Positions 2,522 through 23,800 of a stretch of DNA of 56,363 nt are shown piece by piece (within the stretch, counting starts at the first letter, position 1; each line of letters opens with the position of its first letter). The translations under genes and the position numbers were made by a program. The notes beneath the pieces are model-generated. The model saw only the letters and a list, made by a program, of their open reading frames with translations, made no database searches and had not been told where the DNA came from. The DNA is taken from positions 1 through 56,363 of the forward strand of contig NZ_FOPZ01000022.1 of assembly GCF_900113615.1 (NCBI RefSeq). Direction: 5' to 3'. Source of the DNA: Halorubrum aquaticum (GTDB lineage Archaea; Halobacteriota; Halobacteria; Halobacteriales; Haloferacaceae).

Positions 2522-3805
2522 ATGAGCCTCGCCATCGACGCCGCGACCCCCGACGCGCCCGACTGTGCGGACGACGGGACCTGGCTCGCCTGTATCGCCT
2601 GCGGCGAGACGTTCGCCCCGTTCGAGGAGGTCCGCTACACCTGCGACGACTGTGACGGCCTGCTCGAGGTCCGCTACGCCGACCCGCCGACGTTCGAGGA
2701 GTTCGGCGCGGGCGCGTCGACCGACGGCCCCGATCGCGGCGTGTGGCGCTACCGCGAGGGGCTTCCCTTCGACCTCGGCGTGACGCTGCCGGAGGGCGAC
2801 ACCCCGCTCCACCGCGTCCCCCGGATCGAGGAGTCGGTCGGGGTCGACGCGCTCCGGATCAAACACGAGGGGATGAATCCCACCGGTTCCTTCAAGGACC
2901 GCGGAATGACCGTCGGCGTCCGCGTCGCCCAGGAGCTCGGCGTCGGCGCGCTCGCCTGCGCGTCCACCGGCAACACCTCGGCCGCGCTCGCGGCCTACGG
3001 CGGCCGCGCCGACATGCCGACGCTCGTGCTCCTTCCGCAGGGGAAGGTCGCCGCCGGGAAGGTCGCGCAGGCGAGCCTCCACGGCGCGCGCATCCTCGAG
3101 GTCGACGGCAACTTCGACGCCTGCCTCGACATCGTCCAGGCGCTCGCCGCCCGCGGCGAGGCGTACCTGCTCAACTCGCTGAACCCGTTCCGTCTGGAGG
3201 GCCAGAAGACGATCGGCTTCGAGATCCTCGAGGAGTTCCACGCCGACCACGGGACGTACCCCGACCGGATCGTCCTCCCCGTCGGCAACGCGGGCAACAC
3301 CGCGGCGCTGTACAAGGGGTTCCGCGAGCTCGTCCAATCGGGCGCGCTCGCCGTCGACGACGTACCCAAGCTGACCGGCGTTCAGGCCGAGGGGGCCGCC
3401 CCGATGGTCGAGGCGATCGAGGCGGGCAACGACGAGATCCGGCGGTGGGAGGAGGTCGAGACGCGCGCGACCGCGATCCGCATCGGCAACCCGGTCAACG
3501 CGCCGAAGGCGATCCCCGGGATCCGGAACACGGGCGGCACCGCCGTCGCCGTGAGCGACACGGAGATCACCGACGCTCAGCGCCAGCTCGCGGGCGAGGG
3601 GGTCGGCGTCGAGCCCGCCTCCGCGGCGAGCCTGGCCGGGCTGAAGAAGCTCCGGCACGAGGGCGTCGTCGACGACGACGAGACCGTGGTCTGTCTCACG
3701 ACCGGCCACCTGCTGAAGGACCCCGACGCCGCCTACGAGGCCGGCGGCGACCCGGAACCCGTCCCCAACGACGTCGACGCGGTCATCGAGCACTTGGACG
3801 GGTAG
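2522..3805 (+). CDS. thrC: Threonine synthase
   Basis: The enzyme converts O-phosphohomoserine to threonine using PLP. The protein has 427 residues. An N-terminal zinc-ribbon-like part has CIACG (about 24) and CDDCDG (about 41). The PLP lysine lies in NPTGSFKDRG (K125), followed by a Thr/Ser-rich phosphate-contacting STGNTSAALA and the C-terminal glycine-rich VCLTTGH. ATG 2522 is preferred over longer in-frame starts because TTAAG at 2492-2496 lies at leaderless spacing. It is convergent with lysC, only 25 nt away. With lysC and hom also in the window, much of the aspartate-to-threonine route is encoded nearby, but not as one operon. Confidence 0.93.
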   Translation: MSLAIDAATPDAPDCADDGTWLACIACGETFAPFEEVRYTCDDCDGLLEVRYADPPTFEEFGAGASTDGPDRGVWRYREGLPFDLGVTLPEGDTPLHRVPRIEESVGVDALRIKHEGMNPTGSFKDRGMTVGVRVAQELGVGALACASTGNTSAALAAYGGRADMPTLVLLPQGKVAAGKVAQASLHGARILEVDGNFDACLDIVQALAARGEAYLLNSLNPFRLEGQKTIGFEILEEFHADHGTYPDRIVLPVGNAGNTAALYKGFRELVQSGALAVDDVPKLTGVQAEGAAPMVEAIEAGNDEIRRWEEVETRATAIRIGNPVNAPKAIPGIRNTGGTAVAVSDTEITDAQRQLAGEGVGVEPASAASLAGLKKLRHEGVVDDDETVVCLTTGHLLKDPDAAYEAGGDPEPVPNDVDAVIEHLDG

Positions 3806-3830: not shown

Positions 3831-5012
3831 TCAGTCGAAACAGGACTGGACGATCTCCAGGGCCGCCTCGCGGTCGTCCCAGTCGACGAACACCGCGACG
3901 GAGGTCGCGCTCGTGATCAGGTCGATGATGTTGATACCCTCCTCGGCGAGCGGCCCGATGATGTCCTGGATGACGCCGGACTGGTTGGGGAGCTCGCCGC
4001 CGGTCACGCGGATGACCGCGATCGGATCGTCGACGGTCACCGACGAGAGCGTCTCGTCCTCGACGACCGTCTCGTGTAACACCGCCTCCGCGCGCTCGGC
4101 GACGTCGACGTCGACGTAGAAGGTGACGGAGTCCATCCCCGAGGCGACCGCGTCGATGTTGATCTCCTCGCGTTGGAGGCCGTCCGAGAGGTTCGAGAGG
4201 ATCCCGGGCCGGTTTCGGATCGCCCTGCCGGCGACCGTGAGACACGCGAGCGGCGTCTCCCGCATGTCGATGAGGTTCTCGAACTGCCCCTCGATCCGGG
4301 TCCCGCCCCTGAGCAGGTCGCCGTGTTGGTAGTGGACGACGCGGACCGCGAGCTTCTCGCTCTTGTACGAGAGCGCCGACGGGGCGACGACCTCCGCGCC
4401 GCGGAACGAGAGGTTCCGGAGCTCGTCGACGGTGATCCGGCCGACGTTTCGAGCGCCCTCGACGACCCGCGGGTCGCCGGTCATCACGCCCTCGACGTCG
4501 GTGACGATGACGACCTCGTCGGCGTCCATGTAGTTGCCGAGCATGACCGCCGTCGTGTCCGAGCCGCCGCGGCCGAGGGTGGTGACGTTCCCGTCGTGGT
4601 CCTCCGCGAGGAACCCGGTGATGATCGGGACGACGCCGTCGAGTCGGGCGGCGAGCGCCTCGGCGCGTCGACGCGTCTCCTCGACGTCGACCTCGCCGAG
4701 CTCGTTCGTGATGACCGGCCAGTCGGGGTGGCCGGGCTCGAGGAAGACCGCCTCGATGCCGCGGACCGAGAGGGCGGCCTTCAGCATCCGCACGCTGGTC
4801 CGTTCGCCCATCGACACGATCTCCGCGCGGTCCGCGTCGTCCGTCTCGAAGGTGATGTCGTCGAGGAGGTCGTCGGTGGTCGACCCCATCGCGCTCGCGA
4901 CCACGGCGATCTCGTGGCCGGCCTCGACCGCGTTGGCGACCGAGTCGGCCGCGCGGTCGATCCGGTCGCCGCTCCCGAGGCTCGTCCCGCCGAACTTCGC
5001 GACTACGCGCAT
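3831..5012 (-). CDS. lysC: Aspartate kinase
   Basis: The enzyme phosphorylates aspartate, the first step towards lysine, threonine and methionine. The 393-residue protein opens with the kinase signature VAKFGGTSLGS (residues 4-14) and contains the amino-acid-kinase fold with GFLAEDHDGNVTTLGRGGSD in the middle. Two ACT domains occupy about residues 255-393 (start near LACLTVAGRAI; the second near IAVIRVTGGEL), the usual site for threonine/lysine feedback. The start at 5012 is supported by a strong Shine-Dalgarno, GGAGG at 5019-5023 with 6 nt spacing, unusual among leaderless neighbours. A possible leader ORF (5003-5137) overlaps this start by 10 nt. Confidence 0.94.
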   Translation of the reverse strand: MRVVAKFGGTSLGSGDRIDRAADSVANAVEAGHEIAVVASAMGSTTDDLLDDITFETDDADRAEIVSMGERTSVRMLKAALSVRGIEAVFLEPGHPDWPVITNELGEVDVEETRRRAEALAARLDGVVPIITGFLAEDHDGNVTTLGRGGSDTTAVMLGNYMDADEVVIVTDVEGVMTGDPRVVEGARNVGRITVDELRNLSFRGAEVVAPSALSYKSEKLAVRVVHYQHGDLLRGGTRIEGQFENLIDMRETPLACLTVAGRAIRNRPGILSNLSDGLQREEINIDAVASGMDSVTFYVDVDVAERAEAVLHETVVEDETLSSVTVDDPIAVIRVTGGELPNQSGVIQDIIGPLAEEGINIIDLITSATSVAVFVDWDDREAALEIVQSCFD

Positions 5013-5137
5013 GCTCGCCCTCCGATCTCGTCGGCTTCGTCGTTCCCCGACGGTCGTCGTCGCACTCGCGGAGCGGCCGAGGAGCCCACGACGTCCCCCG
5101 GTCGGGGGCTCGAGACGGCGTGACTGTCACTAAACAT
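5003..5137 (-). CDS. Possible leaderless upstream ORF (44 aa) overlapping lysC
   Basis: A minus-strand ATG at 5137 sits about 28 nt after the TATA-like GTTATCC (5161-5167), so a transcript from that promoter would begin at or near this ATG. The frame runs 44 codons (MFSDSHAVSSPRPGD... to ...EIGGRACA) and stops with TAG at 5003-5005, inside the lysC coding region. It covers the lysC Shine-Dalgarno and start codon. Ribosomes translating it would therefore influence lysC initiation. It has no recognisable domain. Long frames are common at this GC, so the case rests on promoter spacing and the overlap. Confidence 0.35.
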   Translation of the reverse strand: MFSDSHAVSSPRPGDVVGSSAAPRVRRRPSGNDEADEIGGRACA

Positions 5138-17943: not shown

Positions 17944-18026
17944 CGTCCGGCGTCCCCTCCGGTCGCGGACTCCTCGGGGGCGGTCGTCGCGGATCGAGAG
18001 CGGTCACGCACGCGGTCGGCCGACAT
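17940..18026 (-). CDS. Possible leaderless upstream ORF (28 aa) coupled to the flippase gene
   Basis: The ATG at 18026 lies about 29 nt after TTATAT (18053-18058), with iron box 5 between them, so it is where a leaderless transcript should begin. The frame encodes MSADRVRDRSRSATTAPEES... and stops at TGA 17940-17942, overlapping the flippase ATG by four bases (ATGA). It contains the flippase Shine-Dalgarno. Its composition is unremarkable, so it may act through being translated and not through its product. It is too short to test by homology here. Confidence 0.4.
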   Translation of the reverse strand: MSADRVRDRSRSATTAPEESATGGDAGR

Positions 18027-21386: not shown

Positions 21387-22385
21387 TCAGCCGAGTCGAC
21401 CCACGTCGCCGAGGATCGCGCTCGCCGTCTCGGGGCCGCCCGCGCCGCGCCCCGAGATGTTGAGCCGACCCGCGTGCGTGGTCTCGATCTGGACGATGTT
21501 CTGCGTGCCCGAGACCGCGAGCGTCCCGTTCTCGTGGACGAGCCGCGGGGCGACGCGGACCGTCTCGCCCGTCGCCTCGCCGATCAGCCGGACGGTTCTG
21601 CCGTCCTCGGCGGCGAGCCGGAGGACGGACCCCGGCACGTCGCGGATCCCCTCGACCGACGCGTCCTCGAGCGAGAACTCCCGGGCGTCGGCCGGGTCGT
21701 CCGCCCCGCCGAAGGAGAGCACGTTCGCGAGGATGACGCACTTGAGCGCGGCGTCGGTCCCGTCGACGTCGAAGGACGGGTCCGCCTCCGCGACGCCGAG
21801 GTCCTGCGCCTCCGAGAGCACGTGGTCGTAGTCGAGCCCCTCCGCGGCCATGCGCGTGAGGATGAAGTTCGCGGTCCCGTTGAGCACGCCCCGTACCGCG
21901 GTGACGTGGCCCGGCTCGATGTCCTCGACCGTCGAGACCGCCGGGATCGCCCCGCCGACCGTCGCCTCGAAGCGCACGTCGCCGGCGCTGTCGGCGGCGA
22001 GCGCCTGGAGGTCGCCGTACCTCTCCGCGACCGGCCCCTTGTTCGCCAACACGACGTGGCGGTCCCGCTCGAGGGCGGTCCGAACGTGTGAGAAGCCCGG
22101 CTCGGCGTCGCCGAGCGTCGTGGGAGTGGCCTCGACGAGGACGTCGTAGTCGGCCGCGAGCGCGTCCGCCGGGTCGCCGTCGCCGACGATTCCGGTCTCC
22201 GCCTTGCGGGTCACGATCGCCTCGGCGTCGACGCCGAGTCCGTTCCCGGCGCTCGAATCGCTCGAGGCGTCAGCGACGACCGCGCTCGAGGAGTCCGCGA
22301 CTGCGACGACCTCGTGGCCGTACTCGCCGGCCAACTCGACGACTGAGCGGCCGACCGCGCCCGCGCCGATCACGGCGAGCCTCAC
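21387..22385 (-). CDS. hom: Homoserine dehydrogenase
   Basis: The enzyme reduces aspartate semialdehyde to homoserine with NAD(P)H. The 332-residue protein has the Rossmann motif VIGAGAVGR (5-13), VLANKGPVA near the nicotinamide site, and the catalytic-domain signature GGAIPAVSTV...RGVLNGTANFIL. Lys in EAQDLGVAEADPSFDVDGTD-type sequence completes the family pattern. There is no C-terminal ACT domain. The start is GTG at 22385, overlapping the stop of the ACT-protein gene (GTGA), so the ACT protein is probably its separate regulatory subunit, coupled 1:1 in translation. Confidence 0.94.
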   Translation of the reverse strand: MRLAVIGAGAVGRSVVELAGEYGHEVVAVADSSSAVVADASSDSSAGNGLGVDAEAIVTRKAETGIVGDGDPADALAADYDVLVEATPTTLGDAEPGFSHVRTALERDRHVVLANKGPVAERYGDLQALAADSAGDVRFEATVGGAIPAVSTVEDIEPGHVTAVRGVLNGTANFILTRMAAEGLDYDHVLSEAQDLGVAEADPSFDVDGTDAALKCVILANVLSFGGADDPADAREFSLEDASVEGIRDVPGSVLRLAAEDGRTVRLIGEATGETVRVAPRLVHENGTLAVSGTQNIVQIETTHAGRLNISGRGAGGPETASAILGDVGRLG

Positions 22386-22981
22386 GCGTCCACCCCCGCG
22401 AGCGGCGCGACCACGCGCAACTCCTTCTCCTCGGCGATCCCGCGAACCGCCGCGATCGCCTCGCTCGTCTCGCCCGACCGTGCCTCCAACCGAAGCCGGG
22501 CGCTCGAGACCTCCTCGGTGCCCTGGGGGGCCGCGAGCGACACGTCGGCGACCGACGCCGACGCGGACGCCTCGATCCGCGAGAGCGTGTCCGAGAGGTC
22601 GGTGTCGATGAGGTGGCCGAACAGGACGAGAGTGATCTCCTCGGCGTACCGCTCCGTTCCCGCCTGCATCACCGCGATCCCCTCCTCGCGCAGCGCCTCG
22701 ACTATCCCCTCGAAGCGTTCGGCCGTCGCCTCGAAGTCCACCTCGACCGGGATCCGGCCGCGCGGGGTCTTGTTCCCCCGCTCGTGGTAGATCGACAACA
22801 GGTTCCCGCCGTTGTTCGCGATCGGCTGGAGCGCCGCGAGCAGCTGTCCCGGCTCGTCGACGAGTTCGAGTCGAACCGTGTGCGTCGAGGGGGCGGGATC
22901 GTGGCCGCCGTCGGCCGCCGGGTCTGTCGAGTCCGCCGCGTCGGCCGCCTCCTCGGGCGCGCCGTCTCGAGTGTCGCTCAC
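22382..22981 (-). CDS. Double ACT-domain protein, probable regulator of homoserine dehydrogenase
   Basis: From GTG 22981 this encodes 199 residues. An acidic N-terminus of about 35 residues precedes ACT 1 (HTVRLELVDEPGQLLAALQP) and a second ACT-like half (ITLVLFGHLIDTDLSDTLSR to the end). ACT domains bind amino acids. Overlap with hom suggests a threonine sensor for that enzyme. GTG 22981 is preferred over longer in-frame starts because GGGGGTGATC (22984-22993) matches the anti-SD nearly perfectly, 7 nt from the GGGGG core. The predicted transcription start at about 23094 excludes starts further upstream. Confidence 0.8.
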   Translation of the reverse strand: MSDTRDGAPEEAADAADSTDPAADGGHDPAPSTHTVRLELVDEPGQLLAALQPIANNGGNLLSIYHERGNKTPRGRIPVEVDFEATAERFEGIVEALREEGIAVMQAGTERYAEEITLVLFGHLIDTDLSDTLSRIEASASASVADVSLAAPQGTEEVSSARLRLEARSGETSEAIAAVRGIAEEKELRVVAPLAGVDA

Positions 22982-23094
22982 GCGATCACCCCCGCGGGGT
23001 TCGTGGAGACCGTCCGGCACGTCCCTGTCGGCGCGGAGCGGCCGCTTGCTTGCTCCGTATCGATGCGCCGAGCGGGAGTCGTGCCCGTCTGCAT
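22978..23094 (-). CDS. Possible leaderless threonine-rich upstream ORF (38 aa) of the ACT-hom operon
   Basis: The ATG at 23094 lies about 28 nt after TTATA (23120-23124). The 38-codon frame (MQTGTTPARRIDTEQ... to ...STNPAGVIA) has eight threonines. It ends with TGA at 22978-22980, overlapping the ACT-gene GTG (GTGA) and including its Shine-Dalgarno. Position, threonine content and downstream genes recall a thr-operon leader peptide, but ACG/ACC codons are common in off-frames of high-GC DNA. Treat it as a candidate. Confidence 0.4.
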   Translation of the reverse strand: MQTGTTPARRIDTEQASGRSAPTGTCRTVSTNPAGVIA

Positions 23095-23117
23095 ACCCGA
23101 AAGGAGTCGGCGGGATC

Positions 23118-23126
23118 GGTATAAGC
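23118..23126 (-). promoter_or_regulatory. TATA box of the ACT-hom operon
   Basis: GCTTATACC on the minus strand sets a start near 23094, at the ATG of the 38-codon leader ORF. Confidence 0.5.
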
Positions 23127-23197
23127 CTTCGGCGATGGCAGTCGTTGCCTCCGTGTCGTGTGAACACGCTTGACGGTGCTTGATATACTGGGAAAAC

Positions 23198-23677
23198 TCA
23201 TCGAACTGCCTTCACCCGCGATACGAGCCGATCAACCGCTATCCCGGTGGGATATCCGATGAGTCCGAGAATAATGGCAAGCAAGAGACCGAATTGGACA
23301 CCATATTCGATTCCGCCGATTACCTCGGCGTGCGCAGAGGTATACCCGTAGCCCATCATTCTCGGATGGTTGTATCTGGTTGCCCCTGCCCAGTTACCTG
23401 AAAGGTACCCGACGATCGGTGGGAAAACGAACCACCAGAAGCCGATAAGCCACAGCGAACCGATGGTCGGTATGAGACCAGCACCGATGAATCCCGCCAC
23501 AGTAGCGATACCGAGCGCCAAGACGATCCAGCCGAGAGAAAGGCCGATATCCGTTCCGATCACGAAGCCACCGGAGGCGAGTAACAAGAGGACGATCACT
23601 AGTAATGGGAGGCGGCTCCTACCCGGGGATTCTCCGATGACGTGCGGCAAGACGCGGTGATCTTCGAGATCGGTCAT
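23198..23677 (-). CDS. Low-GC multi-pass membrane protein, unknown function
   Basis: From ATG 23677 this encodes 159 residues. An in-frame TTG at 23704 would add nine residues, but CTATTGAA near 23702-23709 sits at TATA spacing for the ATG. Four hydrophobic segments (about 24-44, 48-70, 74-95 and 126-148) alternate with short loops. There is a WWFVFPPIVGYLSG stretch and a GYGYTSAHAEVIGG loop. It is AT-richer than its neighbours and interrupts the translation cluster between aEF-2 and ACT-hom-tuf-rpsJ. No family is recognised; it is probably acquired. Confidence 0.55.
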   Translation of the reverse strand: MTDLEDHRVLPHVIGESPGRSRLPLLVIVLLLLASGGFVIGTDIGLSLGWIVLALGIATVAGFIGAGLIPTIGSLWLIGFWWFVFPPIVGYLSGNWAGATRYNHPRMMGYGYTSAHAEVIGGIEYGVQFGLLLAIILGLIGYPTGIAVDRLVSRVKAVR

Positions 23678-23800
23678 TACTGTCGAGTCTATTTCTGTGT
23701 TCAATAGTCGTTTGGGAGATAACAGCGATCACTTCGCACTCTTCAGCGATCGGCTGTTTCAGACGGAAAACATCTGAAAACAACGTGACTGCGGAGCCGG

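Follow-up and report, generated by a model that had tools for sequence, protein, structure and literature searches.

A short frame rich in threonine codons precedes the ACT-domain protein gene and hom in Halorubrum aquaticum, and we asked whether it acts as a leader peptide through which the translating ribosome controls this operon. Amino-acid leader peptides are, to our knowledge, a bacterial device, and the homoserine branch to which hom belongs serves two end products, threonine and, via threonine, isoleucine. We analyzed contig NZ_FOPZ01000022.1 over its full length of 56,363 nucleotides (the window) together with 391 genomes of the class, in 389 of which relatives of the ACT gene are present.

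The leader frame in the window

The leader lies on the minus strand (Table 1). Its ATG at 23094 is 30 nt from the first T of the upstream TATA box TTATA (23124–23120), a spacing that puts the likely transcript start at or beside the ATG, and the 38-codon frame translates as MQTGTTPARRIDTEQASGRSAPTGTCRTVSTNPAGVIA. The frame ends on a TGA (22980–22978) that has the letters GTGA in common with the ACT start codon GTG (22981–22979), and it contains the Shine-Dalgarno (SD) sequence GGGGGTGAT of the ACT gene. The initial annotation had described the TATA element, the ATG frame with eight threonines, the overlap with the ACT start and the SD covered by the frame, and all of these were recovered. The block GAAGGCTTATA of the window promoter is also found ahead of leaders in other genera. 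The gene downstream of ACT is hom (PF00742, E = 9e-47), and the ACT domain itself scores slightly below the cut-off (PF01842: 24.1 bits, cut-off 27).

Table 1 Features of the leader and the ACT-hom operon in the window
Feature	Coordinates	Strand	Basis
hom, homoserine dehydrogenase; overlaps ACT end	21387–22385	−	PF00742
ACT-domain protein gene; GTG start in GTGA overlap with leader stop	22382–22981	−	Sequence, Pfam
38-codon leader frame with 8 Thr, 2 Ile; probable leaderless start	22978–23094	−	Sequence and conserved frame/stop overlap
SD GGGGGTGAT of ACT, within leader frame	22985–22993	−	Sequence
Thr28 codon ACG, 32 nt before ACT start, within conserved 30–38 nt zone	23011–23013	−	Codon positions
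Outer stem 3′ arm CGTGCC	23016–23021	−	Single-sequence fold; arm-swap test
Thr-Gly-Thr codons ACA GGG ACG; equivalent of the Thr-Thr or Ile-Thr-Ile-Ile run of other genera	23020–23028	−	Leader alignment, codon lists
Inner stem 3′ arm GCTCC	23035–23039	−	Single-sequence fold; inner-stem alignment count
Inner stem 5′ arm GGAGC	23052–23056	−	Single-sequence fold; inner-stem alignment count
Outer stem 5′ arm GGCACG = Thr3-Gly-Thr5 codons	23080–23085	−	Single-sequence fold; arm-swap test over 54 leaders
Promoter core GAAGGCTTATAC: BRE-like GAAGG and TATA	23119–23130	−	Sequence

Between an EF-2-like gene and the leader lies a 168-codon frame with no Pfam match (23198–23704, minus strand). The window also carries a PALP-family gene (2780–3706, plus strand; threonine-synthase-like by family only) and an aspartokinase gene (3831–5012, minus strand); these two genes and hom are not arranged as a single operon.

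Short frames ahead of other genes

A mechanical scan for a TATA element, an ATG and a short frame overlapping a gene of at least 150 aa returned four cases in the 56-kb window, so that the bare architecture alone is weak evidence. A 44-codon frame (5003–5137, minus strand) ends about 10 nt inside the aspartokinase gene, and this leader is conserved in 22 of 30 Haloferacaceae loci (L292–L321), where it has 15–45 codons, is not rich in threonine, begins with an ATG invariably spaced 29 nt from a TATA-like motif and usually ends 7–10 nt inside the gene. It is another conserved starter frame belonging to the pathway of hom. No overlapping leader other than that of aspartokinase (L290) was found at 16 amino-acid loci of the same genome (L276–L291; trpE-, ilvB-, leuA- and PALP-type), a scan in which 8 of 14 PALP matches had loci and which would miss gene starts outside the loci. 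Two more leaderless short frames, near 18026 (28 codons) and 9005 (25 codons) on the minus strand, precede genes of 376 and 536 aa with a 4-nt overlap.

Haloarchaeal ribosomes initiate well on leaderless ATGs, and a starter frame of this leaderless kind, overlapping a gene led by an SD, is a recurring haloarchaeal device. The frame ahead of ACT could accordingly be a mere starter that brings ribosomes to an SD-led gene by termination-reinitiation, its Thr and Ile codons being incidental. The fourfold occurrence of the architecture in the window and its conservation ahead of aspartokinase favor this explanation, as does termination-reinitiation itself, which has been shown for nine overlapping gene pairs in Haloferax volcanii (PMC6728339, available text). 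Because such frames recur, it is the features particular to the hom leader that need explaining.

Conservation of the leader across haloarchaea

Alignment across haloarchaea had been named in the initial annotation as a check on the frame, and the frame proved conserved. By our rule, which demands overlap with the ACT start, a leader frame ends at that start in 47 of the 49 named loci and in 176 of 208 non-Natrialbaceae loci, several of the 208 being one species taken from two collections. Counted by genus label, a leader is present in 26 of 27 genera of Haloferacaceae, among which g17 is doubtful as a positive, and in 6 of 7 genera of Halobacteriaceae, among which g53 is a false positive, the ACT gene of L120 being itself leaderless. 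Locus L176 is missed by the rule and has an intact frame when read by eye. The rule gives 114 distinct leaders in these two families, 13–70 codons long; the first T of TTATA stands exactly 30 nt before the ATG in 87 of them, and 95 end with a 4-nt overlap. That spacing and overlap are held constant despite such variation in length argues that the conservation is not due to chance. Two distinct leaders, L069 and L101, have a broken frame and were excluded from the codon lists; L160 and L101 stem from one place in one genome.

A covariance model of the leader found matches in 110 of the 391 genomes at E = 0.01 or better (99 below 1e-6), and the best 30 of the matches all lie directly upstream of ACT by coordinates. 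This sequence type is confined to Haloferacaceae and Halobacteriaceae, plus a few weak matches elsewhere (E = 0.002 or worse). Natrialbaceae have a leader frame in all 33 loci examined; their leaders are short, begin differently, lack the hairpin described below and mostly overlap ACT by 8 nt. Haloarculaceae ACT genes often have frames of 9–16 codons that are not Thr-rich. The frames in every Natrialbaceae locus and the short, Thr-poor ones ahead of ACT in several Haloarculaceae are both what a mere starter function would lead one to expect.

Contig 1 of one genome (G068) carries two ACT genes 2.3 kb apart (2657795–2658292 and 2660115–2660606; L180 and L204), and a second full-length ACT copy is also present in a few other genomes.

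Threonine and isoleucine codons

We set 30 leader frames, one per genus, against their own dinucleotide shuffles. The two highest z values among the 20 residues belonged to Thr (178 observed, 113 expected; z = +7.9) and Ile (42 observed, 16 expected; z = +7.8), followed by Glu (z = 4.9); genus representatives share ancestry, so these values are inflated and are not independent-sample statistics. In-frame stops numbered 0 vs. about 16 expected in the 30 leaders. Thr makes up 15.4% of the leader frame vs. 6.4% and 7.9% of the other two frames, and Thr is written as ACA 59 times out of 178 in the leaders vs. 14 out of 208 in ACT genes. Several genera have Ile-Thr-Ile-Ile-Thr, Ile-Thr-Ile-Ile, Ile-Thr-Ile or Thr-Thr-Ile in place of Thr runs. 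Given their number, Thr and Ile codons were not significantly clustered (47 vs. 38 ± 5, 270 of 5000 shuffles, a test for which two named genera were pooled with their genus labels). No enrichment was observed in the aspartokinase leaders (22 Haloferacaceae frames: Thr z = −2.4, Ile z = −1.7), which argues that the Thr/Ile signature is not a general property of haloarchaeal leader frames and speaks against the codons being incidental to a starter.

Thr/Ile codons peak 10–12 codons (30–38 nt) upstream of the ACT start. Thr or Ile occupies 43 of the 90 codons there in Haloferacaceae and Halobacteriaceae (expected 17.2 ± 3.5, 0 of 2000 codon shuffles), and 35 of 76 in 28 Natrialbaceae leaders (expected 9.5 ± 2.6, 0 of 2000). 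This zone, which was picked after the constant distances had been seen, has at least one Thr/Ile codon in 24 of 30 leaders of Haloferacaceae and Halobacteriaceae, 21 of 28 of Natrialbaceae and 4 of 22 of aspartokinase; when all three-codon windows were scanned, the maximum fell on the same zone in the first group and one codon further upstream (11–13 codons) in Natrialbaceae. A Haloferacaceae genus with a 17-codon leader that has lost the hairpin keeps Thr-Thr at −38/−35. The Natrialbaceae run comes directly after the start codon, and Thr as second or third codon may reflect a start-context preference. Thr/Ile codons fixed in place in two kinds of leader are again not what a mere starter would require. 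The initial annotation had stressed threonine; Thr is enriched as it suggested, and the signal is one of Thr plus Ile, mainly about 35 nt before ACT.

Halorubrum, including the window, departs from this pattern: the run has moved away, and the window has Thr at −47, −41 and −32. Lengthening of the 3′ part of the leader in this genus has shifted the Thr run from its usual place. With its drifted control codons, the window is a weak example of a strong family, and the response in Halorubrum may be weaker or different. The leaders of Halorubrum laminariae (L029) and H. salinum (L030) are reduced to 22 and 19 codons; the hairpin region is gone, and the frame, the Thr codons and the stop overlap are retained.

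Codon positions 1, 2 and 3 change about equally (2750, 3084 and 3150, a count that still took in the two frame-broken leaders), which is no ordinary protein-coding signature. A functional microprotein encoded by the frame would account for the recurring N-terminal M-Q/R-T-G-T and I/V-x-T-E residues, but it would have to tolerate leaders of 13–70 codons, a last third that cannot be aligned and no third-position excess, and the window frame has no Pfam match; we regard this explanation as very improbable.

A conserved RNA hairpin

In the longer leaders, single-sequence folds give a long hairpin, whose outer stem pairs codons 3–7 with the stretch before the SD, and which has an inner stem besides; the Thr/Ile codons sit on its 3′ side, between the two stems. 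In an unfitted alignment of 43 leaders, 79.9% of the inner-stem cells were paired, a share that never exceeded 45% once the stem was slid. Double changes numbered 21 vs. 10.4 in shuffles, and the covariation was matched in 0 of 500 shuffles; the stem was taken from single-sequence folds, which biases the paired percentage its way and the covariation measures less so. The inner stem is partly re-registered in Halorubrum. In the outer stem, arms pair more favorably with their own partner than with a foreign one (−21.9 vs. −18.4 kcal/mol, P about 1e-6, 54 leaders), and the folding z averages −1.38 in leaders (19 of 64 below −2) vs. −0.56 in ACT coding stretches (4 of 42). RNAalifold on the same alignment in its raw form (A2) returned only a trivial 3-pair hairpin because indels shift the registers.

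A permissive Rfam search (to E = 5) of the window and 10 related loci gave no leader match: the 10 loci returned nothing, and the sole returns for the window were msiK (21.3 bits, cut-off 33, opposite strand) and narK (13, cut-off 43.2). We therefore rejected membership of an Rfam cis-regulatory leader family, including Thr_leader (presumably RF00506), for which no covariance-model match was obtained at E up to 5.

The leader might also be a structured regulatory RNA that binds a ligand or a protein, with the frame and the Thr codons following from the RNA sequence. The conserved hairpin and the flat codon-position pattern are consistent with this, and so is the lack of a match to any known Rfam family; moreover, the outer stem has the N-terminal Thr-Gly-Thr codons as its 5′ arm, so these codons may be kept for pairing. 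However, frame and stop overlap survive many length changes, the hairpin-free leaders of Natrialbaceae and of one Haloferacaceae genus keep their Thr codons in place, and stem sequences differ among genera with the Thr/Ile coding kept, all of which makes such an RNA quite improbable as the explanation. A mere starter frame, for its part, has no need of a conserved hairpin, and in view of this and of the Thr/Ile evidence we consider it unlikely that the leader is nothing else.

Models of ribosome-mediated control

A control-codon leader peptide, as in thr- and trp-type attenuators, is present, with Thr and Ile in a fixed place, and so is the arrangement expected for termination-reinitiation, with a stop/start overlap and an SD within the upstream frame. 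No terminator hairpin with a U-run was found ahead of ACT in the window stretch, and of 123 distinct leaders, 122 have no T run longer than 3, which makes it unlikely that transcription is attenuated in the classical way, by an intrinsic terminator. The likeness to a thr-operon leader peptide drawn in the initial annotation thus holds for the conserved frame, the Thr/Ile enrichment and the fixed position in two leader builds; it does not extend to a terminator or to an Rfam Thr_leader match.

In folding models, a stalled ribosome left the pairing of SD and start codon unchanged (0.375 vs. 0.384 unpaired, P = 0.47). With the Thr/Ile codons blocked, the ACT start region (30S footprint) became 2.2 kcal/mol cheaper to open than in free RNA (P = 0.002, uncorrected for the SD pairing, the opening cost being the second measure taken). 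This cost was 22.9 for free RNA, 21.7 with an initiating ribosome and 20.7 with a stalled one, and the gain from the stall did not differ significantly from the gain produced by a ribosome at the first codons (P = 0.22). The models weakly back ribosome-read control. The fixed distance of the Thr/Ile codons would place a pausing ribosome just upstream of the space needed for the ACT start, which favors control by ribosome position.

We judge it somewhat probable, on the sequence evidence, that a ribosome-read Thr/Ile leader controls ACT-hom translation. A leaderless ribosome would read the short frame from a transcript begun at or next to the leader ATG, and ribosomes finishing the leader would restart on ACT by way of the stop on the ACT start and the SD in the last codons. 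The sensor would be the Thr/Ile codons, which usually form a run of two or three some 35 nt ahead of the ACT start, and at which the ribosome would pause when charged Thr-tRNA or Ile-tRNA is scarce; from the size of the ribosome footprint, the front edge of the paused ribosome would lie about 20 nt before the ACT start, holding the hairpin open and leaving the SD uncovered. The pause would then alter the frequency of ACT-hom starts. Physiologically, one would expect ACT-hom to rise when Thr or Ile runs short, a sign that we infer as we do the pausing and the regulation; the sign may also be the reverse, with fewer restarts. SD motifs do not recruit 30S subunits de novo in H. volcanii, according to the available text of PMC6728339; on that basis a pause should lower restart-dependent expression, or a restart-based variant would have to apply.

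Relation to known leader peptides

The leader of the enterobacterial thr operon, thrL, is a short frame with Thr and Ile codons before homoserine-pathway genes. The haloarchaeal leader resembles it in this and in a hairpin that embraces the control codons; in contrast to thrL, it is archaeal and leaderless, ends on the start of the next gene, lacks a terminator or U-run and is unrelated in codon and nucleotide sequence.

Mycobacterial poly-cysteine leader frames, which are short and leaderless, are probably the best functional analog. Like the haloarchaeal leader, they have codon runs for one amino acid near the stop and no terminator, but they are bacterial and specific for Cys, whereas the haloarchaeal leader has Thr/Ile codons and a conserved hairpin. 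The available text of PMC1262725 reports candidate leader peptides with Cys codons that precede cys operons in mycobacteria. It also describes the LEU element of Actinobacteria, which similarly has a control-codon frame and an RNA fold before a biosynthetic gene; its Leu codons were proposed to pair with the SD, whereas the modeled Thr/Ile stall does not free the SD in the haloarchaeal leader. The H. volcanii termination-reinitiation pairs, as presented in the available text of PMC6728339, share the NTGA overlap and the SD inside the upstream frame, but the upstream frame of haloarchaeal hom is a short leader with sensor-like codons and not a gene.

Our search of the open-licence PMC literature turned up no archaeal case of leader-peptide attenuation. 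The accessible portions of PMC12482152, PMC12186497, PMC11456600 and PMC11481537 report no amino-acid leader peptide of archaea, and that of PMC11456600 mentions uORFs in Methanosarcina in general terms.

The frame ahead of ACT is a real, conserved, Thr/Ile-marked leader of the haloarchaeal hom operon, with an anatomy that would work like that of a bacterial leader-peptide sensor. Whether it is an archaeal leader-peptide sensor of charged Thr- and Ile-tRNA seems to us an evenly balanced proposition; such a sensor would exert ribosome-mediated operon control via leaderless initiation and stop-start overlap, with Thr/Ile codons positioned some 35 nt ahead of the start it regulates, across no fewer than three families of haloarchaea and in versions with and without the hairpin. 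If it is one, archaea would sense amino-acid supply by the ribosome itself, as some bacteria do, and leaderless initiation and the restart at overlapping genes would be tied to metabolic sensing. A conserved Thr/Ile leader in the tractable genera Haloferax and Halobacterium would open ribosome-mediated control in archaea to direct testing.
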